From positions 18,959 through 46,884 of IMG/VR virus record IMGVR_UViG_3300001450_000062: DNA of 27,926 bases. One strand, 5' to 3'. The notes below the pieces were generated by a model. That model did no database searches and was not told the DNA's origin. It was given only the letters and a program-made list of their open reading frames with translations. Positions 5,147 through 23,305 of this stretch are shown here, piece after piece (within the stretch, counting starts at the first letter, position 1; each line of letters starts with the position of its first letter). The position numbers were made by a program, and so were the translations under genes. Source of the stretch: a virus.

Positions 5147-5499
5147 TGGCAAAATCACGTACGCAAGACTTATGTTGTTGTGAAGAAAATAAAAAGCATA
5201 ATCAAATAGCGGTTTATCAATCACATACAACTTATATAACTAATACTGTAAGACATTGTGGACCTTTTTATGCAATATCTGCAACAGAAGATACTGTAAT
5301 TGATGTTAGTGAAGGTCTTACAGGAATTAATGAGTTTGATGCAGGAACAAAAAGACCTGTAGCAAATAATATATCAGTACCTAAAGGTATGACAATATAC
5401 TCTGATTTTCAATGTATAGAACTAGACAGTGGTAAAATATTAGCATACTCTAAAGGAATTGCTGGAGAAGCTAAAGAACCAACAGCAGACGAATCTTAA
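5146..5499 (+). CDS. Small structural-type protein with CCC cluster
   Basis: This is a 117-residue protein whose start overlaps the upstream stop by one base. Near the N-terminus is a triple cysteine (residues ~10-12, DLCCCEEN), with two further cysteines later (RHCGPF, FQCIEL). The rest is predicted beta structure with the motif VPKGMTIYSDF; a similar VIPKGVTLKYDYSDLEF occurs in the 157-residue protein at 14060. That shared pattern suggests a small beta-sandwich virion decoration or fibre-attached protein. No enzymatic motif is visible. The CCC cluster could bind a metal or form disulfides outside the cell, but nothing in the sequence decides this. Confidence 0.6.
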   Translation: MAKSRTQDLCCCEENKKHNQIAVYQSHTTYITNTVRHCGPFYAISATEDTVIDVSEGLTGINEFDAGTKRPVANNISVPKGMTIYSDFQCIELDSGKILAYSKGIAGEAKEPTADES

Positions 5500-5511
5500 A
5501 AAATATAAACT

Positions 5512-6267
5512 ATGGCACCAATGTTAGGATTAGGAGTAAGCATGGCTAAACCTCAGTATTTAGATGCACCAAAAGTATCTTTGCATTCACTAGCACTTGA
5601 CGGAACAACTGACTTTGTTACTTTTGAAGATCAGACATATGAAATAAATGCTGGAGGAAATAATCTTACTATATCTTTTTGGGCTAAAAGAACTGACAAT
5701 AATGATGAAGCTGTTGTACTAGGGCATTCAGGATCAGGATCATTTAAACGTCTTTATTTTGATTCTGCTGGCGATAAACTTTATATAGAAAGTGATTTAA
5801 ATGGTCAAGAAGCTTATGCTGCTGTTACTGCTGATACTAATTGGCATCATTATGCTATAACTATTACAGGGAAAACCGGAGATGCCGCAACTGTTGCCGC
5901 ATTTGAAGATGGAAGTGCTGTTGTTGTATCTAATACAAATTTTGGCGCATCTGAATCTAGAAATATTACTTTCAATAGAATTGGTGATGATAACGCTGCT
6001 GGCAATCAAGCATTTAAAGGGTTACTATATCAAGTTGCTATACACAACAAATTATTAGCTGGTGCAGAAATACTAAATTTATATAATAGCGGAGTACCAA
6101 TTCCAGTAGACGGTAATGCAGGTAATTATATATCTTCTCTTAACTTACTAAATTTATGGAAATTTAATGAAGGAGAAGGAACTTCAATAGCTGATTTTGG
6201 ATTTTTAAATTTAACTGGAACATTAAGTGGTAATGCAACTTTTAGCTTAACAACACCAATATCTTAA
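5512..6267 (+). CDS. LamG/concanavalin-like lectin domain protein
   Basis: This 251-residue protein has one LamG-type jelly-roll domain (about residues 28-190). The signs are the order SLALDGTTDFVTFED, LTISFWAKR, a LYIESD strand, NWHHYAITI and an FKGLLYQVAIHNKLL strand before a final WKFNEGEGTSIADF segment. These are the classic strand signatures of Laminin_G_3/concanavalin-like lectin domains. No signal peptide is present, so it is more likely a virion component than a secreted protein. In phages such domains usually bind glycans on the host surface. An internal ATG (residue 11, SMAKPQ) could also start translation; the first ATG is preferred because it follows the A-rich leader. Confidence 0.75.
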   Translation: MAPMLGLGVSMAKPQYLDAPKVSLHSLALDGTTDFVTFEDQTYEINAGGNNLTISFWAKRTDNNDEAVVLGHSGSGSFKRLYFDSAGDKLYIESDLNGQEAYAAVTADTNWHHYAITITGKTGDAATVAAFEDGSAVVVSNTNFGASESRNITFNRIGDDNAAGNQAFKGLLYQVAIHNKLLAGAEILNLYNSGVPIPVDGNAGNYISSLNLLNLWKFNEGEGTSIADFGFLNLTGTLSGNATFSLTTPIS

Positions 6268-6277
6268 TTTAAGTAAT

Positions 6278-7423
6278 ATGAAAAAAATAATTTTAGTTTG
6301 TATAATTTTTAAGATAATACTAGTTTCGTGCTTAACACCTAAAAAATGTTGTTCGCAAGAAACTAATACTGATATAAAATCATATTTACAAAATTTTGAT
6401 ATAAAGAAAACTTTAAAAAAACATTTAAAATTTTCGACAGTTTATGGAGCAGTAAATGGGGGTACTTCTGTATCTGATGCAAAAACATTTTCAGTAACAT
6501 CAGGACAACTACAAGAAGGAATTATATCAACTCCTTATGACTATTCTTTAACTGTAGGTATAAGAAAGATTGCCAGATTTGGTTATGAAAACAGAGCAAA
6601 TACTTTTTATGATGGTACAGAGTCAAACTATACAGACGCAGCTACAGTAGGTAAGGTGCAAGGGTTTGAATATCTTTTTGAAGTAGATTATGCTAGACAA
6701 CAAGGAGTAGATTATATAGATCAGCATCATTTTATTAGATATAGCTCAGATGATAATTGTGATGGTCCTTTATGTGTTGATCATTTTGCTGCAAAAGTAG
6801 AGTATTTAAAAGACGGTTTTGCTGACATAGAATATTTTGAATTGTCAGAAAGATATAGATGGAAAAAAAATGCAGATTTATCTTTTAGTATAGGTGCTGC
6901 GCATAGATTAGCTGAACCTTATGGGTATAATCCTTTAGAAGAATGGATGCTAAACAATGGAAATTTACATTATACGTATTTAGCTATACAAGAGGGTTAT
7001 AACGTGAATGTATATGCAAATGAATATAGTGATCCTACTGGAAATATAGTTGCTACAAATGCTGAGGTATGGAAAGAAGTTGTTGTTCCTCAAGTTTTAT
7101 CTGACTATTCTGAAAGAAAAAGAAATGAATTAGAAAAACAAATTCAACACTCTTTAATTATAGGATTTGATTATTATAAGTACACTAAAAAAACATGGTT
7201 ACACGCATGGGGTAATTTATTACCTTGGCATTACAATGATGGTAGTGAGTTTTCATATCATAACTATATAGAAGACGACCAGTGGTACGACTATTCTGCA
7301 GGTTTAATATATGGGATAAAAGTAAATAAAAATCTAGGATATTTTGTTGAGGGTAAGTATAACAAATACTGGAACAGAGAGTGGTACGACTTTAAATTAG
7401 GAGTTAATTATATAATATTTTAA
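6278..7423 (+). CDS. Putative outer-membrane beta-barrel lipoprotein
   Basis: The 381-residue product begins with a hydrophobic export signal and a lipobox-like LVSC (Cys18). A Lys at position 12 interrupts the hydrophobic core, which is unusual. Two more cysteines follow (KKCCSQE), so signal peptidase I cleavage near there is an alternative. The mature part consists of alternating aromatic/polar strands (for example SLTVGIRKIARFGYE, LSFSIGAAHRLAE, HSLIIGFDYYKY, WYDYSAGLIYGI) and ends FKLGVNYIIF. A terminal Phe strand is the usual signature for insertion of outer-membrane barrels. The phage therefore seems to place its own protein in the host outer membrane. Receptor masking or superinfection exclusion is a reasonable but unproved role. 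It opens the block of envelope-directed genes that ends at 11278. Confidence 0.6.
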   Translation: MKKIILVCIIFKIILVSCLTPKKCCSQETNTDIKSYLQNFDIKKTLKKHLKFSTVYGAVNGGTSVSDAKTFSVTSGQLQEGIISTPYDYSLTVGIRKIARFGYENRANTFYDGTESNYTDAATVGKVQGFEYLFEVDYARQQGVDYIDQHHFIRYSSDDNCDGPLCVDHFAAKVEYLKDGFADIEYFELSERYRWKKNADLSFSIGAAHRLAEPYGYNPLEEWMLNNGNLHYTYLAIQEGYNVNVYANEYSDPTGNIVATNAEVWKEVVVPQVLSDYSERKRNELEKQIQHSLIIGFDYYKYTKKTWLHAWGNLLPWHYNDGSEFSYHNYIEDDQWYDYSAGLIYGIKVNKNLGYFVEGKYNKYWNREWYDFKLGVNYIIF

Positions 7424-7435
7424 AACAATAAAATT

Positions 7436-7525
7436 ATGGCAAAATGTGCATGTGGTAAGACAAAATCTGAAGATGGGAGCTGCGATGGTTCTCACGAAAA
7501 AACAACTAAAACTGAAACGAAATGA
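7436..7525 (+). CDS. 29-residue CDGSH-type iron-sulfur mini-protein
   Basis: A short ORF starts at an ATG with the same AATTATG leader as many neighbours, and its TGA overlaps the next ATG (ATGA). The product begins MAKCACGKTKSEDGSCDGSH and ends in a Lys/Thr tail. This carries all four ligands of the CDGSH [2Fe-2S] motif: Cys4, Cys6, Cys16 and His20. Compared with the usual C-x-C-x2-(S/T)-x3-P-x-C-D-G-S-H, there is one extra residue between Cys6 and Cys16 and the Pro is missing. Known CDGSH proteins are normally longer (about 60 residues or more, often dimeric), so this is a minimal version. A redox or iron-sulfur-carrier role is inferred. Alternatively it binds zinc or works as part of a complex with the coupled ORF. 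Confidence 0.7.
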   Translation: MAKCACGKTKSEDGSCDGSHEKTTKTETK

Positions 7526-7692
7526 ATTGGATTAATAGTTGGGCTAAAGGAAATAAAAAAGAAAAGTATGAAATTACTTTTAGATTAGGTAGAATAACAG
7601 TATTAGAAATGAAGGTATGTTTATTCTGCACAAAAGATTGTACTTCTAATAGATTTAGAATTATAGTATTGAATTTTGGATTTGAATTATAA
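7522..7692 (+). CDS. 56-residue ORF coupled to CDGSH mini-protein
   Basis: The ORF starts at the ATG inside the ATGA overlap with the CDGSH mini-gene and ends at TAA three bases before the next ATG. It encodes a basic protein (MNWINSWAKGNKKEKYEITF...) with predicted beta strands (YEITFRLGRITVLEMKVCLF, FRIIVLNFGFEL) and two cysteines in the spacing CLFCTKDC (three in all). I do not recognise a family. The tight packing on both sides supports it as a real gene. The Cys pattern next to a CDGSH protein may hint at metal binding, but that is speculation. Confidence 0.5.
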   Translation: MNWINSWAKGNKKEKYEITFRLGRITVLEMKVCLFCTKDCTSNRFRIIVLNFGFEL

Positions 7693-7695
7693 GCT

Positions 7696-7905
7696 ATGCC
7701 TATTACTAATAAACAAATACACGAAGAGTTAAGAGATTTAAAAGAAGATGTGAGATTTATTAAAAAAAGATTGTTAGATCCAGACGATGGAACTATCTCA
7801 CGAGTTAATAGAAATACTAGTTTTAGAAAAGCTACTCAAAAAACCCTTTGGTCTATTTGGTTAGTTTTAATAGGTATATTAGGTAAATTAATATTTTGGA
7901 ATTAA
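7696..7905 (+). CDS. XhlA-like small membrane protein
   Basis: This 69-residue protein has an N-terminal coiled-coil-like helix (IHEELRDLKEDVRFIKKRL), a short polar linker and one C-terminal transmembrane helix (about residues 51-67, LWSIWLVLIGILGKLIFW). This topology resembles XhlA/haemolysin-type accessory lysis proteins, in which the tail anchors the protein in the inner membrane with the coil in the cytoplasm. The gene lies one base before the next TM/coiled-coil gene, suggesting joint translation. An accessory role in lysis or membrane targeting is inferred from topology alone. Confidence 0.5.
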   Translation: MPITNKQIHEELRDLKEDVRFIKKRLLDPDDGTISRVNRNTSFRKATQKTLWSIWLVLIGILGKLIFWN

Positions 7906-7906
7906 A

Positions 7907-8188
7907 ATGGCTAAAGAGTTAAATGAAGATACTGGATTTAATATAAGTGTTAAAACACTTATAGCTATAAGTTTTGCAATGGCAACTATAATAGGCATGT
8001 GGTTTGCTTTACAAGCTGATATAGAAGAAGCTAAAGAGTTGCCGGCACCTCCAGATCCAGAAGTTACTAGAATGGAGTTTGACATGAAAGATCAAATGAT
8101 TCGTAACACTATTATAACAACTCAAAAAGATGTAGAAGAAATTAAAAAATCTATGGAAAAAATAGAAGATAAATTATATAACCGATGA
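7907..8188 (+). CDS. Single-TM coiled-coil protein, spanin-like topology
   Basis: A 93-residue product with a short N-terminal cytoplasmic part, one TM helix (about residues 16-35, TLIAISFAMATIIGMWFALQ) and a C-terminal domain. That domain has a PAPPDPEVTRMEFDMKD hinge and a coiled coil (TQKDVEEIKKSMEKIEDKLY). An N-in inner-membrane anchor with a periplasmic coiled coil is the layout of inner-membrane spanins. It overlaps the next gene by ATGA, and that gene encodes an exported protein, as spanin pairs often do, but the partner lacks a lipobox. I rate it as a possible lysis or envelope-stress protein, not a proven spanin. Confidence 0.5.
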   Translation: MAKELNEDTGFNISVKTLIAISFAMATIIGMWFALQADIEEAKELPAPPDPEVTRMEFDMKDQMIRNTIITTQKDVEEIKKSMEKIEDKLYNR

Positions 8189-8514
8189 GATATATACTTA
8201 TCTTAATAATATTTTTTACAGGAGGAGGAGCTTTTGCGCAGATTACAGCAAAGCATTTTAATGCTGAGTGGAATAAAGCTAATGATGTTGAATGGTTTAT
8301 GGGGTTATCTGAGTGTCAAACAAAAGGCTACATAGATATAGGTAAGAGTTCTGATGATGCAAAAAAATATAAAATAGCAGTTGTACCTACTATTATAATA
8401 TTTAAAGATGGAGAAGAAGCACTTAGGTTTCAAGCTGACTTGTCTTTTAAAATGGTATCAACAAAAAAAGAAGTACAAGAAGAAATAGATGAATTATTAA
8501 TGAGCGATTTTTAA
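8185..8514 (+). CDS. Exported thioredoxin-fold protein lacking CXXC
   Basis: The 109-residue product has a clear signal peptide (residues 1-19, ending AFAQ). The mature part has a thioredoxin-like pattern: FNAEWNKAND where the CXXC helix normally begins, then YKIAVVPTIIIFKDGEEALRFQ, which matches the cis-Pro loop (Pro68) and the following beta strands. No CXXC is present; the only cysteine is Cys44 in SECQ. It is therefore unlikely to be a normal disulfide reductase and may act as a binding or chaperone-like thioredoxin-fold protein in the periplasm. I recall similar small proteins in marine Bacteroidetes phages, function unknown. Its start overlaps the upstream TM gene (ATGA). Confidence 0.65.
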   Translation: MRYILILIIFFTGGGAFAQITAKHFNAEWNKANDVEWFMGLSECQTKGYIDIGKSSDDAKKYKIAVVPTIIIFKDGEEALRFQADLSFKMVSTKKEVQEEIDELLMSDF

Positions 8515-8515
8515 A

Positions 8516-11278
8516 ATGAAAAAACTATTATTATTATTATTACTATTACCTTTTATAGGGATTGGGCAAGTTAATACTTTTCCTTGGGTACATAATTTTG
8601 AAAATAATTTACCATTACAACAAGATCAAAATGATGATGGTGATTGGTTGTTAAAAATAGGTGAAACATCCTCATTTAATACAGGCCCACAAGGAGATCA
8701 CACAACTAGTAATGGTGTTTATTTTTATGTAGAATCATCATCTCCTAATTATCCTAGTAAACAGTTTATAACATATACACCAACATTTGACGTATCTGTT
8801 ACTCCTGGCAAGGTATTATCTTTTTGGTATCACATGTTTGGACCAGCAATGGGAGAGCTTGAAGTAGCTATAGTAGATAGCTTTGGTAATTATATTTTTA
8901 TAGATGCATACAACGGAGATCAAGGTATGGCATGGAAATTAGGTTATTATCCATTAGACAGTTTTAATCTACAAAATAACTTTAAAATAGCATTTGTAGG
9001 AAATACTGGGACTAGTTTTACTAGCGATATATGTATAGATGATATAATGATTAGTAATCCATATTCTATAATTTATGGGTGTACAGATACTGTAGCACCT
9101 AATTATGATTCTACAGCTACTATAAATATTGGTTGTATTTATATTAATGGCTGTATGAACTCTTTAGCAGAAAATTATAATCCGTGGGCAAATGTAGACG
9201 ATGGCACTTGTGTAATGGAAGTCAGTTGTAGTTCTGGACAATCATTAATAGAAGTTGCAATACTATTAGACAATTGGCCTGGCGAAACTTCTTGGGAAAT
9301 AACATCTGGTGGTAATATAATATATACTGTGCCAGCTGGGACATATGACTATACACAAACAGGACAAACAGTATTTACTGAAGTTTGTGTGCCTATTAGT
9401 GATACTATTGTATTTACTATAAACGATACCTACGGTGATGGTATTGGAGGTGGTTCTGTAGTTGGTAGCTGTATTGTAAAAAACTTAGACTGTGAAGATA
9501 CAGTGTTTATTTTAAATCCACCTAACTTTGGGTACAGTGCTTCATCAAATCCTTATGCTTCAGATTCATGTAGTAATGATACTACTATATATGGCTGCAT
9601 TGATGAAGATTACTTAGAGTACAATGAGTTAGCTACAATTGATGACGGTAGTTGTAGTACAATAGCATTATATGGGTGTATAGATTCAAGTGCTTTTAAT
9701 TATGATCCAGCAGCACATAGAATGGAATTAACATCTCCATGCACTTACGATTTAATATTATATGATGCTGGAGGTGACAGTTGGGGTAATTGTTGGTTAG
9801 GAGTAAGACAAGGCACTAATTTATGGCAATTTAGAATTAATTCAAATGGTGTATATTCTGATACATTTAATTTATCACTAAGTGCATATGAAGAAGTATA
9901 TCTTTATTATTTTGAAATACCTACTCCTCAACAAAATGCACAACAATTAGATATACAAACAATACAAAATTCATTTAAGTTAGAAAATACGTATGGAGTT
10001 ATACTCTATGAAGGTGACAACCCTTGGCCTGGACCTAATGAAAATAAATTAAAAAACTTTAAAAATCCAGAAGATATTTATACTGCTTTACCTTACTGTG
10101 GAAATGAGTGTATAGATATAATTTATGGATGTTTAGATCAATCTGCGTATAACTATAATGATACAGCTAATACAGCAGATACATGCTACTACAATCCTGG
10201 ATGTACAAATCCTGGGTATTTACAATACTATACTCAAGGTTTTGTAGCTGATATAGATAATGGTAGTTGTAATAATTTAGCTGTTTTTGGATGTACTGAC
10301 CCAAATGCATTTAATTTTAATCTTTCTGCTAATGTAGATAATGGAGGGTGTGTTCCTGTTGTAGTTGGGTGTATGGTAGTTGGTTCTTTTAATTACAATC
10401 CACAAGCAAATACACCTGGTTCTTGTACTCCAATTATTTATGGATGTACTTCTCCTATAGCTTTTAATTACAATATTAGTGCTAATACAGATGACGGTAG
10501 TTGTATAGGAGTAACATATGGTTGTATGGATCCGGATGCTTTTAACTATAATCCTCTTGCAAATATTACTGATGAAAGTTGTATTCCTGTAGTCTATGGT
10601 TGTATGGATGCTACTATGTTTAATTATGACCCATTAGCAAATACAGATAATGGAAACTGTATTCCATTTGTTTATGGTTGTACAGATTCAATAATGTTTA
10701 ATTTTAACCCTTTAGCCAATGTTGACAATAATTCTTGTATATCTTTTATTTATGGTTGTACTGATCCTAGTATGCTTAATTACAACTCATCCGCTAATAC
10801 TGAAGATTTTAGCTGCGTTCCTTATGTTTATGGGTGTATGGATAATACTGCTCTTAATTATGATTCAACAGCTAATACTGATAACGGTTCGTGTATTACT
10901 GTGGTGCAAGGCTGTATGGATGTCAATGCGTGGAATTATAATATTGAAGCTAATGTTAATGACTCTGCTTCTTGCTTATATAGCGCTGATTGTATCACTG
11001 GTCCGGGTAGTCCTTATTGGCTCAATGACCCTTGTTACGCCTGGGTAATAGATGTAGATGAATATTGTTGTGAAAATGAATGGGATACTATATGTCAAGC
11101 TACATATGATTATTGTCAAGGTACTTGGTCTGGGCCTTTACTTAAAAGAGGAGCTAAAACTTTAATAATGATTACAGATTTATTAGGAAGACCAGTAAAT
11201 ACAATTAGAGACAATACACTTTTGTTGTTTATATATGACGACGGAAGTGTAATTAGAAAAATAAAAATTAATAAATAA
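8516..11278 (+). CDS. Secreted MAM/repeat adhesin with T9SS-like C-terminus
   Basis: The 920-residue protein has four parts. Residues 1-18 are a signal peptide. Residues ~22-182 form a MAM domain (FENNLPLQQDQNDDGDW, tGP-DHT, LSFWYHMFGPAMGELEVAI and DICIDDIMI). Residues ~185-822 carry about fifteen GC(T/M)D-A-NYNP-AN-DDGSC repeats, with larger inserted beta regions between the early copies. Residues ~825-867 hold a DEYCCENEWDTIC segment of a type I associate with flavobacterial surface proteins. The last 39 residues (LIMITDLLGRPV ... FIYDDGSVIRKIKINK) resemble the sorting tail of T9SS cargo in flavobacteria. Together this predicts export by the host Sec and type IX systems to the cell surface, not assembly into the virion. 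The role may be surface modification, adhesion or exclusion of other phages. Confidence 0.75.
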   Translation: MKKLLLLLLLLPFIGIGQVNTFPWVHNFENNLPLQQDQNDDGDWLLKIGETSSFNTGPQGDHTTSNGVYFYVESSSPNYPSKQFITYTPTFDVSVTPGKVLSFWYHMFGPAMGELEVAIVDSFGNYIFIDAYNGDQGMAWKLGYYPLDSFNLQNNFKIAFVGNTGTSFTSDICIDDIMISNPYSIIYGCTDTVAPNYDSTATINIGCIYINGCMNSLAENYNPWANVDDGTCVMEVSCSSGQSLIEVAILLDNWPGETSWEITSGGNIIYTVPAGTYDYTQTGQTVFTEVCVPISDTIVFTINDTYGDGIGGGSVVGSCIVKNLDCEDTVFILNPPNFGYSASSNPYASDSCSNDTTIYGCIDEDYLEYNELATIDDGSCSTIALYGCIDSSAFNYDPAAHRMELTSPCTYDLILYDAGGDSWGNCWLGVRQGTNLWQFRINSNGVYSDTFNLSLSAYEEVYLYYFEIPTPQQNAQQLDIQTIQNSFKLENTYGVILYEGDNPWPGPNENKLKNFKNPEDIYTALPYCGNECIDIIYGCLDQSAYNYNDTANTADTCYYNPGCTNPGYLQYYTQGFVADIDNGSCNNLAVFGCTDPNAFNFNLSANVDNGGCVPVVVGCMVVGSFNYNPQANTPGSCTPIIYGCTSPIAFNYNISANTDDGSCIGVTYGCMDPDAFNYNPLANITDESCIPVVYGCMDATMFNYDPLANTDNGNCIPFVYGCTDSIMFNFNPLANVDNNSCISFIYGCTDPSMLNYNSSANTEDFSCVPYVYGCMDNTALNYDSTANTDNGSCITVVQGCMDVNAWNYNIEANVNDSASCLYSADCITGPGSPYWLNDPCYAWVIDVDEYCCENEWDTICQATYDYCQGTWSGPLLKRGAKTLIMITDLLGRPVNTIRDNTLLLFIYDDGSVIRKIKINK
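10283..10981 (+). repeat. Tight tandem array of nine GC(T/M)D-NYNP repeats
   Basis: Nine consecutive units of about 24-26 residues, each of form (V/I)YGC(T/M)D-A-(F)NYNP-AN-DDGSC(I), occupy this part of the adhesin. Units differ from each other at both codon and residue level, so this is an old or diversified array rather than a recent duplication. About six further copies lie upstream from 9071, separated by longer insertions. The arrangement would give a rod of disulfide-pinned, possibly calcium-binding modules that lifts the MAM domain away from the T9SS-anchored C-terminus. Confidence 0.85.
11159..11275 (+). other. T9SS-like C-terminal sorting segment
   Basis: This stretch encodes the final 39 residues of the MAM adhesin. 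Key positions are the DLLGR motif after a hydrophobic strand, a polar NTIRDNT turn, the aromatic FIYDDG strand and a basic terminal KIKINK strand. I recognise this as the flavobacterial variant of the type IX secretion C-terminal signal (D-LGR ... (F/Y)IYDDG-V-(K/R)). It implies host T9SS recognition. Confidence 0.7.
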
Positions 11279-16721: not shown

Positions 16722-17606
16722 ATGGCAGTATATAAAACAAAATCAAGTAAAACAATAATAAGGAAGATTTTTAGAGATTTAAGACCTAAGAATGATGATT
16801 GGATTGATGATGCTATTGAGTGGATAGGAGAAGCTTTAGAGCATATTGGAGCAGCTTCACAGCTGTGTCAAAAACAATGTGTTTTAGATATTAGTAATCA
16901 CAAAACATTAATGCCGTCAGACTTATATTATATTAATCAAGTATCAATTAATAACAGTGTTGCTGCTGTAGATTCTAATGAGTTAGATAGTTTAATAACT
17001 AAAGTAACTGAATTAAAAGATGAGATTAAAAGTGCTAAAGATAGTGGTGTATCTTATGATAGTACAACAGCTATACTGCATCAAATAAATAATAGAATAG
17101 TTGTACTTGAAAATGCTTATTTTAATAATAGTAATCAACTACAACCACTACAATACGGAGCAAGTAATTTTCATAAAAGTATGCATTGTGAAGGATGTGT
17201 TAATGAAAACGCAAGTTCTGAAGATACATATATTGTAGATTGTGATTATATAAAAACTTCTTTTTCTAGTGGAAAAATATGTATAAGTTACATGGCGTTT
17301 CCAATTGATGAAGATTGTTATCCTTTAGTACCAGATGATATTAGTTTTTCAGAAGCTATGTTTTGGTACATATACAAAAAAATATTATTGGCTAAACCAG
17401 ATTTTAAAAATAATGGTATAGATTATAGTTTTGCAGAACAACAATGGAAATATTATTGTACACAAGCTAGAAATGCAGCTAACTATCCAGACATAGATAG
17501 ATACGAATCATTTATGAATCAATGGGTTAGGTTAATTCCAGACATAAATAAACACGATGTAGGATTTGAAAATTTAAACACAAGAGAAGATTTATATAGA
17601 AGCTAA
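16722..17606 (+). CDS. Ring/gatekeeper-type tail protein before the muzzle
   Basis: This 294-residue protein begins MAVYKTKSSKTIIRKIFRDLRPKNDDWIDDAIEWIGEALEHIG, a pattern I associate with a ring protein of crAss-like phages. A coiled coil follows at about residues 88-130. Near residue 195 is YMAFPIDEDCYPLVPDDISFSEAMFWYIYKK, resembling the DEDGFPLIPD-A-WYI motif of tail gatekeeper-like proteins. The C-terminal part is helical with a WKYYCTQARNAANYP segment. The stop overlaps the muzzle start (TAATG), so both should be made in linked amounts. A structural role in the tail tube is likely; the exact ring number cannot be given. Confidence 0.65.
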   Translation: MAVYKTKSSKTIIRKIFRDLRPKNDDWIDDAIEWIGEALEHIGAASQLCQKQCVLDISNHKTLMPSDLYYINQVSINNSVAAVDSNELDSLITKVTELKDEIKSAKDSGVSYDSTTAILHQINNRIVVLENAYFNNSNQLQPLQYGASNFHKSMHCEGCVNENASSEDTYIVDCDYIKTSFSSGKICISYMAFPIDEDCYPLVPDDISFSEAMFWYIYKKILLAKPDFKNNGIDYSFAEQQWKYYCTQARNAANYPDIDRYESFMNQWVRLIPDINKHDVGFENLNTREDLYRS

Positions 17607-20600
17607 TGGCAGAAAAAAGATTTATAAAAGGATTATTTAAAGATACAGGGAATATTGACCAACCTGAAGGAAGTTGGAGATATGCTAAGAATACTATCAT
17701 TAATGAAAAAAAAGGTTCTGTTTCTAATGAAGGAGGAACAAAACTTAATGCACAGTTAAACTTTGAGTCGTCTGGGCAAACAGAAAAAATTATTGGAGCT
17801 ATAGAAGTTAATGAAGATAAGGTTGTTCTTTTTCTTAAAGATGTTGTAACTACTCCTAATCCTAGAAGCGAAATAGGTATATGGGAAGATGGTCTCTATA
17901 AAAGAATTTTTAATCCTCTTCTTTCTCCTCCTAGTAAATTAACAAATGATTTAAATTTTCAAGAATTACACCCTATAGAAGGTACTTTTAAAATAGACTC
18001 TAAAGGAGATTTAGTAGTTTATTGGACAGATGATTTAAATCCTCCTAGAGCATTTAATATAGATAGACAGCGAAGAACTAGTTTGGCTACTAGTGATCTG
18101 TATGGTATAACATCTCCAAATATTGACAATATAAATATATTAAATTTATTTCCTTATTCTGGTCCAGTGCCTCATACATTTTTGCATGATATTTATTGGG
18201 CATTTAATCCTTTCCAAAAATCAGTTAATTCTGGAGGAGGTTTATTAACTGGAGTGTATTATTTAGCTTTAGCATATGTAGATGAAGATAACGTAGCTAC
18301 TAATTTTTTAACTGTTAGTAATCCTGTATCAATTGTAGAAGAATTTGACTCTACTAAACCTACCACTAAAAAAGATGGTATGAGGCATGGTAGTCAAACT
18401 ACAAAATGTATTGCTTGGAAAGTTAATAATTTTAATACAAATTATAAATATATTCGTCCTGTTGTGATTAGAAAAATGGGGGATGCTACAGAAGCATTAA
18501 GAATAAATGATATAGAAATAAACCCTAGTGTATTTGGAGAGCAAAAAATAACTTTTACAGGATTAGAGGGGTTTACACCAGGCTCTGTTAAAGATATAAT
18601 TATAGATACTGTATCGTATGAAACTGCAAAAACTATTAGTCAATTAGATGGTGTTTTGTATTTAGGTAATTTAACTAGCTCACCAGATTTAGGGTATCAA
18701 AAATATGCAAACAATATTAAATTACTTCCTGAAGTTAGGAAATTTAATGATTTTGATAGGTACATTGCATCAGTAGATAATTTTCAAACAGGATGGGGAA
18801 GTACTCCTGTAGATAATTTTGGGGGAGGAGTAATTACTGTTAAACCTGCAGAATCATATAGATACGCTCCTAATGCTTTTCAACGGAAAGGATATATGAG
18901 GGGTGAAGTGTATGCATTTTATATCGCTTTTATTATGAAAGATGGCTCTATGAGTTATGCTTATCATATACCGGGAAGAGAGCCTCAAGATGATGAGTTA
19001 GCAGATGTAACTAGTTTAGCTGGTAATCTTTATGGAGGATTATGGACAGACTTTGAGCTGTTATCTACAGGACAAGCTAAAAGATTTCACTACTTAGATT
19101 CAAAGAGTCATCCCGGCGCTAATGCTGGTAATTGGAGTTTAGCTCTTTATAGAAATATGAACTACTGGCAAAACAATACAGAATTTTACCCTAACAATAG
19201 TAATTTTGAAATATGGGATTTATCTGGGTATACAGGAAATAATATACAGGGGAATCACGTAAGACACCATCATTTTCCTTCAAATAGACATGAAGAATAT
19301 AAAACTATAACAGATGAAAGAAAGTGTAGAACTACAGGATCTATAGGAACTACAGCTGGACAGCCAGCTTGGAATGGAACTTTAGTTATGATTTATGGAA
19401 AAAGACAAACTACTAACACAGCTCATCCTGAGTGGTATAATAACAGTAGTAATTGGAGTAGGAATATATTTAATATGGGGAATAATGGTCCTGCTAGCTG
19501 TAGTAACCCTTCGAATGCGGGATCTCAAAATGATCCAGCTATGGAGGCGGCTCTATGGGATTTTAATAATAACTATTTTAAAGCTGATCAAACTATGACT
19601 GTTACAGTTAGGTGGCAGGTAGTGCATAGACAAAAAAGTTCTAATGATCCTAATGGTGATATAGTTACTAGACTTATATCTAACACAGCTGCTAGTGGCT
19701 GGGTAAATGAAGCGTCAGATACAGATGCTCCTAATATTAATTGGACTAACGGTTCTAATGCTACAGGTGGTGCTTTTAGTGGTCCTTGTGGGCATGCAAA
19801 TGCGGACTGTGGTTGTGGGACTACAGGTCAAAATTGGGTTGGTTATAATAGTTGGAGAAACAGTGGAGCACAAACAATTGCTTTAGGTCCTGGTGATACT
19901 ATTTATTTAGAATCTCAAAAAACAACTGGTAATGGGAGTTCTATGTTTCAAGCAGGTTATGATAAATATTGTCATAATTGTATAGACTTTGGTTATAATT
20001 ATAGTTTTATAGAATTTGTAATTACATCAGGAGCGGGGGCTTCAACTTTAGCTGACTATAATGATGCAGACATTAATCACCAAGTTCAAAGATTAGGTTT
20101 TACACTAGAAGATGTACAAATACCTAGATCAATAGCTGACAAAGTTCAAGGATTTAGAGTATACTATGCAAAAAGAACACACGCAGATAGAACTGTATTA
20201 GGGCAGTCTCCTATAATTCCAGGTTTAATGCATAAAGATCAAATAGGATTGTGTCAAGAAGCTGCTGCTGGTACCGCAGGTCAGGTTGCAGAATCTAATC
20301 AGATTTTAGCAACACTTCAAGATCAACCTGAAGTATTTTATAACTTAGATCCTTGGATGAGGGATTGGCAAGATTATCCAAATCTACCTTTTTATGATGA
20401 AGGTAATTTAGCTGTAGGTCCAATAACTTCAGATGAGCCTGCTATGGATGTATTTTCATTTCATGATTTTTATTTATTAAGAACTAAAAATAGTTTAGCG
20501 TCAGCAACACATATAAGTATTGAATACTACTCACAAAATTTAGTTTGGAATGGTCCTGGTTTAGAGCAAGATAAAAAAATGGTTACTAGGATTAAAACTA

Positions 20601-23305
20601 ATGCTGCTACAAATATTGATGAAATAGAAGAAACTTGGGGGTGGGATGCACAATTTAATTGTTACCCTCAATTTATGAAGTCAGCTATTTTTATTGGGGC
20701 TATTTATGCTACTCCCACATTTTTAACTATGCCTAGATTAATTGGGCAAAAAGCTAAAACATATTTATTAGGAGACAGTATATTTGAAGGTAAAGCTTTA
20801 GGTTTTGGAGGAAAATTATTTAATGAGTTTGGTGAAAGTTGTATAGTATTTAAATTAATGAATGATCACGCTCTAACATCTACAAATAATCTTATAAGTT
20901 ATCCAGGACAAACTCAATCTAGTACTGGTGATGGTGGGGGAACAGGGGGAGATAATGCAGGATTTTTTGATGGTCAAAATACTATATTAGGGGAGTATGG
21001 TATTGGTGGTTTAAATGATGCTATACTTGTTAACACTTTAGATAATACTGGTAATTGGTCTGGAACAGGTAATGGAAGAGTTAGAAGTAATTCAGCTATT
21101 GTAAATTTAAGAGCATTTAAAACAGATGTATATAAATCTATAGATGATCAAGAATTAATTTGGACAGGGTTTGAAGTGTTAGGTCAAGATTTAAATAATT
21201 TTATATTTGAAAATGGAGCGCCTATACTTTTTGATTGGGAAGGTCCTACTGGACAAACTTATACTTATAATGCAGATTTTTCTGTAACTACTTTACAAAG
21301 TACAATACAAAGAGATTTTAATGAAAATCCAATTGACGCAAGTCAAACAGGTATATTTGGAGGAGACACTTTTATATGTAGATATGGACTAACTACATCT
21401 ATTAAGCATAATCAATCAACATTAACTTCAGAGCCTCAAAAAGGTATACACTATCACATAGTCGAAAGTACAGATAATATTAACTTTAGACATCAAGAAG
21501 ATGGTGATAGTCAATATTTTCCTCAAGGAGTAGCTAAATCTATTCTTAGAGATTCAGGACCAAAAGATTTTATGCATTTTGACAATTTAAAATATAACAG
21601 TAATTACTCTGAAAATAATGACATAAGACCAGCTATACCTTTACCTATAAAACAACTTGATCAAACTGATTTTCCTACAAGAACACACAGAAGCACAAAG
21701 AATGATCCTACTAGTTTAATTGATAACTATAGAATATTTTTAGCAAATCAATTTAAAGACTTACCTAAAAATAGAGGTGACTTATGGAAGCTAGCTACTT
21801 TTAATAATTTATTGTATTTCCACATGGAAGAAAGTTTATTTGCAGCTAAAGGTAAACAGTCTATGCAGATGAAAGATGGTAGTGAAGCTTTTGTAGGAAG
21901 TGGTGATATATTCCAACAAGAGCCAGACGAAATAATCCAAACAAGTGATGGGTTTGCGGGGACTCAATCTCAATACGCAGCATTAACTACTAGATATGGT
22001 TACTTTTTTGTAGATGTAGCATCTAAAAAAGTTTTTATGATGAAGCAAGAATTATCAGAAATAAGTAGTTTAGGGCTAGAAGATTGGTTTAGAGATAATT
22101 TAAGATCAAAATTAGAAATTTACGGTTTCAGCAACTTGTGCATTGATAATCCAATATTAGGGTTAGGTTTCCATAGTATTTATGACCCTAAATATAAACG
22201 TATTATATTAACTAAAAGAGATTTAGATCCTACACACTTTTTTATTGATGGAATAGCTATAGCAAATTCAAATCCTAATGTGTCTCCTCCTCCTTTGGGC
22301 TCTATTTTCTGGAGTTCAAGTCTATGTAAATTTACACTAGAATCGTCAAATAAAATTACAAATATACAAGAAACAATAGTTATTGAATTTGATGACGAAA
22401 AATATTTTACAAAAGGAGGGTGGACAATATCTTATTACCCTGAAATGGGTATGTGGTGTAGTTTTCATGACTATGTGCCTTATATTTATTTTAATACATC
22501 TACAAATTTTTATTCAGCAACAGATAAATATGCAAGACCTGGATGGAATTTTGGACCGATGACTCCTGCAGCTAGTTGGGTTGGATCTACACTTTGTAAT
22601 TTAGGAATATGGGAACATAATGCTGAAGATAATCACGGTATACTTTATCAAGAAAATAAAAATGGGTATTATACAGATGCGGAGTTTAAAGCTGTTACTT
22701 ACTATTACCCTTTTGAATTTGAGTTTATACATAATGAAACTAAAAGTATAGATTCATTAACTGCTAATATAAGTTATACTTTAGAAACATTTAATCAAGC
22801 AGGTATTAGTGTTTTAGAGCATGGCTTTACTAGCTTCTTAATATATAATACAATGCAGATTTCAGGCATTGGGTCTTACTGGCAAGATTTAGCGGGAGTA
22901 GGACAAACTACTGCTGATGGTACACTACTAACTCCTTCTAACATAGATAAAATAGAATACTTAATTAATACAAGACGAGTTGGTAATGAGTGGAAAATAA
23001 ATCAATTTAGAGATTTAGCTAATTTAGCAAAAGATACAGGAGCTTATTATACAGCTACAGGATCTAATGTTGTAGGGGGAGCTAACACTGGAACTATAAC
23101 AACTTCTTCTATAAATAACATGTTTATAATAGACGGTATGAATGAGATTGTAAACGCAGCTTATATAGATTTAGCTAAGAATTGGGATAAAAAGAGAAAA
23201 TTTATAGATAAATGGGTAGGAATCCGATTAATTTATGACAATGTTACAAATAATTTACTAAATTTGTATTCCACGAATGTGGGTGCAAGAAAAATACACA
23301 GGTAA
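17606..23305 (+). CDS. Giant muzzle/stabilization-type tail protein
   Basis: This 1899-residue protein starts with KRFIKGLFKDTGNIDQPEGSWRYAKN, matching the N-terminus of the large 'stabilization' or muzzle protein of crAss-like phages (end piece of the short tail, counterpart of the T7 gp12 nozzle). A second conserved core lies at about residues 1385-1500: FKDLPKNRGDLWKLATFNN, MEESLFAAKGKQ, FVGSGDIFQQEPDEII, GFAGTQSQYAALTTRYGYFFVD and ISSLGLEDWF. Between them is a long, Cys-containing, Gly/Asn/Trp-rich region, which may be an inserted host-interaction domain. It is larger than the members I remember. It would form the DNA exit and carry host-contact surfaces. The end of the gene is one base from the next ATG. 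Confidence 0.75.
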   Translation: MAEKRFIKGLFKDTGNIDQPEGSWRYAKNTIINEKKGSVSNEGGTKLNAQLNFESSGQTEKIIGAIEVNEDKVVLFLKDVVTTPNPRSEIGIWEDGLYKRIFNPLLSPPSKLTNDLNFQELHPIEGTFKIDSKGDLVVYWTDDLNPPRAFNIDRQRRTSLATSDLYGITSPNIDNINILNLFPYSGPVPHTFLHDIYWAFNPFQKSVNSGGGLLTGVYYLALAYVDEDNVATNFLTVSNPVSIVEEFDSTKPTTKKDGMRHGSQTTKCIAWKVNNFNTNYKYIRPVVIRKMGDATEALRINDIEINPSVFGEQKITFTGLEGFTPGSVKDIIIDTVSYETAKTISQLDGVLYLGNLTSSPDLGYQKYANNIKLLPEVRKFNDFDRYIASVDNFQTGWGSTPVDNFGGGVITVKPAESYRYAPNAFQRKGYMRGEVYAFYIAFIMKDGSMSYAYHIPGREPQDDELADVTSLAGNLYGGLWTDFELLSTGQAKRFHYLDSKSHPGANAGNWSLALYRNMNYWQNNTEFYPNNSNFEIWDLSGYTGNNIQGNHVRHHHFPSNRHEEYKTITDERKCRTTGSIGTTAGQPAWNGTLVMIYGKRQTTNTAHPEWYNNSSNWSRNIFNMGNNGPASCSNPSNAGSQNDPAMEAALWDFNNNYFKADQTMTVTVRWQVVHRQKSSNDPNGDIVTRLISNTAASGWVNEASDTDAPNINWTNGSNATGGAFSGPCGHANADCGCGTTGQNWVGYNSWRNSGAQTIALGPGDTIYLESQKTTGNGSSMFQAGYDKYCHNCIDFGYNYSFIEFVITSGAGASTLADYNDADINHQVQRLGFTLEDVQIPRSIADKVQGFRVYYAKRTHADRTVLGQSPIIPGLMHKDQIGLCQEAAAGTAGQVAESNQILATLQDQPEVFYNLDPWMRDWQDYPNLPFYDEGNLAVGPITSDEPAMDVFSFHDFYLLRTKNSLASATHISIEYYSQNLVWNGPGLEQDKKMVTRIKTNAATNIDEIEETWGWDAQFNCYPQFMKSAIFIGAIYATPTFLTMPRLIGQKAKTYLLGDSIFEGKALGFGGKLFNEFGESCIVFKLMNDHALTSTNNLISYPGQTQSSTGDGGGTGGDNAGFFDGQNTILGEYGIGGLNDAILVNTLDNTGNWSGTGNGRVRSNSAIVNLRAFKTDVYKSIDDQELIWTGFEVLGQDLNNFIFENGAPILFDWEGPTGQTYTYNADFSVTTLQSTIQRDFNENPIDASQTGIFGGDTFICRYGLTTSIKHNQSTLTSEPQKGIHYHIVESTDNINFRHQEDGDSQYFPQGVAKSILRDSGPKDFMHFDNLKYNSNYSENNDIRPAIPLPIKQLDQTDFPTRTHRSTKNDPTSLIDNYRIFLANQFKDLPKNRGDLWKLATFNNLLYFHMEESLFAAKGKQSMQMKDGSEAFVGSGDIFQQEPDEIIQTSDGFAGTQSQYAALTTRYGYFFVDVASKKVFMMKQELSEISSLGLEDWFRDNLRSKLEIYGFSNLCIDNPILGLGFHSIYDPKYKRIILTKRDLDPTHFFIDGIAIANSNPNVSPPPLGSIFWSSSLCKFTLESSNKITNIQETIVIEFDDEKYFTKGGWTISYYPEMGMWCSFHDYVPYIYFNTSTNFYSATDKYARPGWNFGPMTPAASWVGSTLCNLGIWEHNAEDNHGILYQENKNGYYTDAEFKAVTYYYPFEFEFIHNETKSIDSLTANISYTLETFNQAGISVLEHGFTSFLIYNTMQISGIGSYWQDLAGVGQTTADGTLLTPSNIDKIEYLINTRRVGNEWKINQFRDLANLAKDTGAYYTATGSNVVGGANTGTITTSSINNMFIIDGMNEIVNAAYIDLAKNWDKKRKFIDKWVGIRLIYDNVTNNLLNLYSTNVGARKIHR

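Follow-up and report, generated by a model that had tools for sequence, protein, structure and literature searches.

The gene at positions 8516-11278 raised the question of whether a phage may encode its own cargo for the type IX secretion system (T9SS) of its host, and of what directs the product there. The window (the whole stretch of DNA analysed, 27,926 nucleotides) was taken from an IMG/VR virus record of 46.9 kb, in which it spans positions 18959-46884. Judged from sequence, the product is very probably a phage-encoded cargo of the host T9SS, and its predicted export to the cell surface is well supported.

Phage-encoded T9SS cargo has already been proposed. In Cryophage, T9SS cargo proteins were proposed to use the host system and superinfection exclusion was suggested (Bellas et al. 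2020, PMC7468147). As here, Cryophage genes encode proteins with T9SS sorting domains, but its recognised type A domains sit on an endoglucanase, a GH39 protein and a PA14 protein (PMC7468147), whereas the present cargo is adhesin-like, occurs in many marine phages and mostly carries an unmodelled tail. Gut crAss-like phages likewise contain T9SS sorting-domain genes, near the head gene block; they differ in their gut habitat, their BACON domains and their recognised sorting domains (PMC6949934). An unmodelled class of short tail, natural tail swaps and a gene cassette common to two phage groups look new. Full-text searches of open-licence literature returned no earlier report of the short tail class or of a tail swap.

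Genomic setting and architecture of the cargo gene

The virus record is a contig of a crAss-like phage. Membership was judged by capsid, muzzle and ring, all of which were found: Crass_capsid (E 8e-81, upstream of the window), a crAss muzzle protein at 17606-23305 (E 2e-39) and Ring_3_4 (4e-6, slightly short of its cut-off). A P22-like portal (4e-7) was also matched upstream of the window. Among the closest named relatives of the muzzle protein, at approximately 24-28% identity, are phages of Flavobacterium psychrophilum and the gut phage cr127_1. The cargo gene sits in the phage late region, co-oriented with tail-fibre-like genes, virion genes and the gene for an M15 peptidase, probably the endolysin. 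Its placement inside a phage structural region, as claimed in an earlier reading made from the sequence only, was confirmed by this crAss-like late region. A neighbouring phage protein (366-3233) contains GCxD repeats resembling those of the cargo and lacks a sorting tail; the repeats of the two proteins are homologous (26-62% identity in matches to cargo loci).

The open reading frame is a real gene, and its features are listed in the table. The N-terminal Sec signal peptide expected of a T9SS cargo was identified by reading the sequence and from its conservation across relatives, not with a dedicated predictor. Nearly all intact relatives begin with an MKK(I/L)LLLLLLP-like stretch, and the signal ends in a small residue plus Q. 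Fifteen GCxD repeats were counted by pattern, with GC positions spanning residues 188-799. Signal peptide, MAM domain, approximately 15 repeats and a terminal DLLGR segment had all been noted by the sequence-only reading, and each was recovered. Searches of Pfam, NCBIfam and PHROGs with the cargo protein returned nothing beyond MAM, and no enzyme domain was found with Pfam or NCBIfam. The N-terminal domain differs among relatives, being MAM in some and another domain elsewhere, a variation that would fit a ligand-binding role.

Table. Cargo gene, its parts and the genes upstream of it (positions in the window).
Feature	Position	Strand	Evidence or remark
Putative outer-membrane beta-barrel with signal peptide	6278..7423	+	homologue in 52 of 62 cargo loci
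Small protein, one apparent TM segment and probable coiled coil	7907..8188	+	homologue in 55 of 62 cargo loci
Thioredoxin-like exported protein, directly upstream of cargo	8185..8514	+	homologue in 55 of 62 cargo loci
T9SS-type cargo gene, 920 aa	8516..11278	+	signal peptide, MAM, 15 GCxD repeats, Cys-rich module, short tail
Sec signal peptide MKKLLLLLLLLPFIGIGQ, approximate	8516..8569	+	read from sequence; kept in relatives
MAM domain, residues 34-180	8615..9055	+	Pfam PF00629, E 5e-20
GCxD-repeat region with interspersed domains, residues 188 to about 824	9077..10987	+	pattern; conserved in relatives
Cys-rich module CITGPGSPYWLNDPCYAWVIDVDEYCCENEWDTICQATYDYC, residues 826-867	10991..11116	+	common to short-tail and canonical-tail relatives
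Candidate short T9SS-type sorting tail, core residues 880-918 AKTLIMITDLLGRPVNTIRDNTLLLFIYDDGSVIRKIKI	11153..11269	+	sequence profile match

The short tail and its exchange with type A domains

The tail segment runs from DLLGR to IYDDGSVIRKI (residues 880-918). It comprises about 40 residues, or about 47-49 if the count starts at the GPLLKR segment. Neither TIGR04183 nor PF18962, the type A models, nor any other T9SS model of NCBIfam or Pfam matched the window protein, and the isolated C-terminus (last 79-119 residues) returned no match from NCBIfam at E values up to 10. The search against T9SS sorting profiles called for by the sequence-only reading was therefore negative. As no curated profile matched, other evidence was sought.

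Relatives of the cargo at 39-78% identity were collected from 62 IMG/VR loci in a first viral scan. A second scan, with the tail alignment as query, gave 80 loci that partly overlapped the first 62, and all newly fetched loci contained the same cargo family. Contig-cut and frameshifted copies aside, the approximately 130 complete phage relatives all terminate in one of two ways, with the short tail (92 non-redundant) or with a type A domain of the canonical kind (15). Both tail types start directly after the same Cys-rich module. All 15 canonical-tail relatives match TIGR04183 as well as PF18962, reaching the type A cut-offs that the window protein does not. A profile of the canonical tails matched the CTDs of NucA and FspA from the T9SS complex of F. 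johnsoniae (8glk, 8glj), with E values of about 1e-9 (NucA, 8glk chain D, 1.2e-9). The model of a canonical homologue has five strands and matched T9SS CTD structures including that of RgpB; against 8glk chain D the E value was 1.3e-4, with a TM score of 0.76 by target length. In one locus, L014, the cargo body and the tail lie in two overlapping ORFs, an apparent frameshift that may be an assembly error.

The exchange is most direct in the pair L025 and L036. Their DNA is 92% identical over 2.4 kb (5414 to 7833) and homology ends at the tail. The two proteins hardly differ as far as GPLPxR; beyond it, a type A domain follows in one and the short tail in the other. In a tree of the cargo body, made with the tail excluded by a quick search with SH-aLRT as sole support, tail type switches at least 10 times, of which at least eight are forced by well-supported branches. 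Since a module is swapped in an otherwise unchanged gene, the two tails are suggested to perform the same job. Exchange with TIGR04183 domains was the measure by which the short tail was judged as a sorting domain; the exchange itself was observed, and from it we infer the function. If this is correct, tails interchange between nearly identical phage genes, and the swap is a natural experiment that exposes a class of sorting tail missed by curated databases.

The fold of the tail was modelled with AlphaFold2. A small beta-sandwich had been expected by the sequence-only reading; the model instead has a three-stranded sheet (residues 128-162 of a 165-residue construct) at modest confidence (pLDDT about 80 in the tail, construct mean 50), as against the seven-stranded Ig-like sandwich of type A. 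No significant PDB match to this model was obtained with Foldseek; 8gl8_D, a T9SS complex chain at rank 20 (E 3.4), was dismissed as evidence. A search of PDB sequences using the short-tail profile gave chance matches only. Short and canonical tails aligned in the expected register with hhalign, at a score too weak to prove homology (E 0.016, probability 2.8%).

The short tail resembles the type A domain (TIGR04183/PF18962) in lying at the extreme C-terminus of a signal-peptide protein, each replacing the other in phage homologues, and in the order of its motifs (D/N-x-x-G turn, strand, basic end). It differs in length (about 40 against about 70 residues), in being undetected by curated models, in the absence of the YPNP segment and in having LLxYIYxDG where the alignment places the motif D GxY of known CTDs. 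A closer parallel in size comes from Prevotella intermedia, whose short CTDs, 43-55 residues long and each predicted to form one three-stranded sheet, have been shown experimentally to be cleaved (Open Biol 2025, PMC11969387). Those authors describe it as the sole species of the phylum for which long and short CTDs have been reported together (PMC11969387). The window tail has a similar length and, at the modest model confidence given above, the same number of predicted strands, and in both cases short and long CTDs can occur in one genome. The P. intermedia CTDs, unlike the marine tail, have GxY or GxN in motif D, and the lineage is different. Lacking the GxY of motif D in its sequence, the short tail is filed neither under type A nor under the P. 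intermedia short class. For HBP35, the final 22 residues of the CTD have been reported as sufficient for GFP secretion (review, PMC10202324); together with the P. intermedia CTDs, this makes a functional sorting tail of 40 residues plausible by analogy.

The sequence-only reading had named the lack of any profile hit, combined with a C-terminus other than a small beta-sandwich, as grounds for giving up the T9SS assignment. Taken literally this is what was found, yet these grounds are too strict, because homologues carry a type A domain at the same position and because cleaved, short, three-stranded CTDs are known in P. intermedia (PMC11969387).

Short tails in cellular genomes

A genome scan for the short tail gave matches in 183 places, of which 80 were retained. 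By record title, the retained matches are almost all from Flavobacteriales or unclassified Bacteroidetes, and their source genomes are mostly metagenome-assembled or single-cell. In Flavobacteriales the tail forms the extreme C-terminus of otherwise unrelated proteins, most of them with a signal peptide. These include PHB depolymerase-like esterases (L068, L109), a protein containing an HExxH motif like that of metalloproteases (L072) and an endonuclease I-family protein (L142) from Brumimicrobium oceani, a named isolate that has both tail types. The label endonuclease I is also given to NucA, the T9SS substrate whose structure is in 8glk. Two host proteins with the short tail also contain GC motifs (six in L079, three in L139). 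No curated profile recognised the short tail.

A profile built solely from the cellular tails scored 54.3 bits at the C-terminus of the window protein, against a best score of about 10 bits for 2000 shuffles of the same protein, and matched no second ORF of the record. The assignment of the gene product to the cargo of the host T9SS gains support from this score, from the cellular short tails and from the tail exchange.

The short tail was found in 96 of 296 sampled Flavobacteriales genomes, compared with 3 of 296 genomes spread across the phylum Bacteroidota, the latter count serving also as the specificity control. Twelve Flavobacteriales genomes with short tails contained 1-51 of them per genome alongside 33-150 type A tails, and SprA is encoded in 11 of the 12. 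G001, G003, G011 and other Flavobacteriales have dozens of short-tail proteins per 1.5-1.9 Mb genome. Such proteins would escape current T9SS profile annotation. If the assignment is correct, then at up to about 50 such proteins per small marine genome, the secretomes of many marine Flavobacteriales have probably been underestimated.

Proposed route, purpose and neighbouring cassette

In the proposed route, the cargo would be exported by Sec and would fold in the periplasm. Its last 40 or so residues, as a short three-stranded sorting tail, would then be recognised by the host T9SS through the SprA translocon and a PorV-type shuttle, and the adhesin-like body would either stay displayed at the surface of the infected, putatively flavobacterial cell or be released from it. 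Recognition by SprA/PorV and surface anchoring are steps that we infer. The position of the cargo among late genes suggests that it acts late in infection, when an altered cell surface could mask receptors and so limit superinfection or the loss of progeny to debris. Of the roles put forward in the sequence-only reading (superinfection exclusion, receptor masking, cell aggregation), any of which the cargo might have, receptor masking late in infection was tentatively judged the likeliest. If the route is correct, a large set of marine phages displays its own protein on the host by means of the host's secretion machine.

The same gene order could be read differently. A position among co-oriented structural and lysis genes, next to a protein with GCxD repeats and no sorting tail, would suit a virion component, that is, a tail-fibre or decoration adhesin whose C-terminus is a small beta-structured tip and not a sorting signal. 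The conserved Sec signal peptide, however, would take such a protein out of the cytoplasm, where virions are assembled; the C-terminal domain is interchangeable with TIGR04183 domains, and the short tail is also present on cellular esterases and an endonuclease. Because of the signal peptide and the tail, a virion role was judged highly improbable. Export by a route other than the T9SS, with the short tail as an export or anchoring signal peculiar to marine Flavobacteriales, was given a similarly slight chance. It would account for the failure of curated T9SS profiles to find the tail and for the missing YPNP segment and GxY motif of canonical tails. It is harder to reconcile with near-identical proteins in which the short tail stands in for a type A domain, with the presence of the tail in SprA-bearing genomes, and with a length and predicted strand number like those of the short T9SS CTDs of P. 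intermedia (PMC11969387).

A further alternative concerns purpose only and is compatible with a T9SS cargo: the protein may be a secreted adhesin for aggregation or particle attachment, or a host-derived metabolic surface protein. The MAM domain and GCxD repeats are adhesin-like, similar GC motifs occur in short-tail host proteins, and N-terminal domains that vary among relatives are expected where ligands differ. The lack of an enzyme domain weighs against the metabolic form, while adhesion itself meets nothing specific against it. This purpose was considered possible, if somewhat doubtful.

The cargo gene is accompanied in most of the 62 loci by homologues of the three genes listed upstream of it in the table. 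The thioredoxin-like protein keeps the conserved VPT, lacks CXXC and adjoins the gene for the cysteine-rich cargo. The TM segment and coiled coil of the small protein were read from the sequence without a predictor. The putative barrel protein is strongly conserved (mean column identity 73% over 16 phages), and its C-terminal pattern suggests an outer-membrane barrel. It matched no Pfam family (PorP/SprF included) and no PDB entry, and no homologue was found in 20 host-like genomes; on these grounds, its identification as PorP/SprF was rejected. A cargo gene near a putative outer-membrane barrel gene recalls type B T9SS cargo with its clustered PorP/SprF barrel (PMC10202324), but the phage tail matches no type B model and the barrel no Pfam family. 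No cultured phage carrying the barrel-like or thioredoxin-like gene was found.

By capsid, carriers of the cassette fall into two groups. Nine of 50 records have a crAss capsid and 40 a capsid related to those of Maribacter phage Panino, the Flavobacterium elemo phages and Cellulophaga phages; one record has both. The crAss capsid being present in just nine, it was ruled out that all carriers are crAss-like, and the split indicates a cassette common to both phage groups. Panino itself has neither tail type. A broader proposal is that these two capsid-distinct groups would share one surface-remodelling cassette, in which the T9SS cargo is accompanied by the barrel as a dedicated shuttle or anchor and by a thioredoxin-like protein that would help the cysteine-rich cargo in the periplasm, and that the short tail forms a separate class of sorting signal accounting for a large share of the marine Flavobacteriales secretome. 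As a whole, this was regarded as speculative and rather unlikely. At one cargo locus (L002:9676-10689), an ORF past the portal gene contains a DUF192 domain (E 1e-7).
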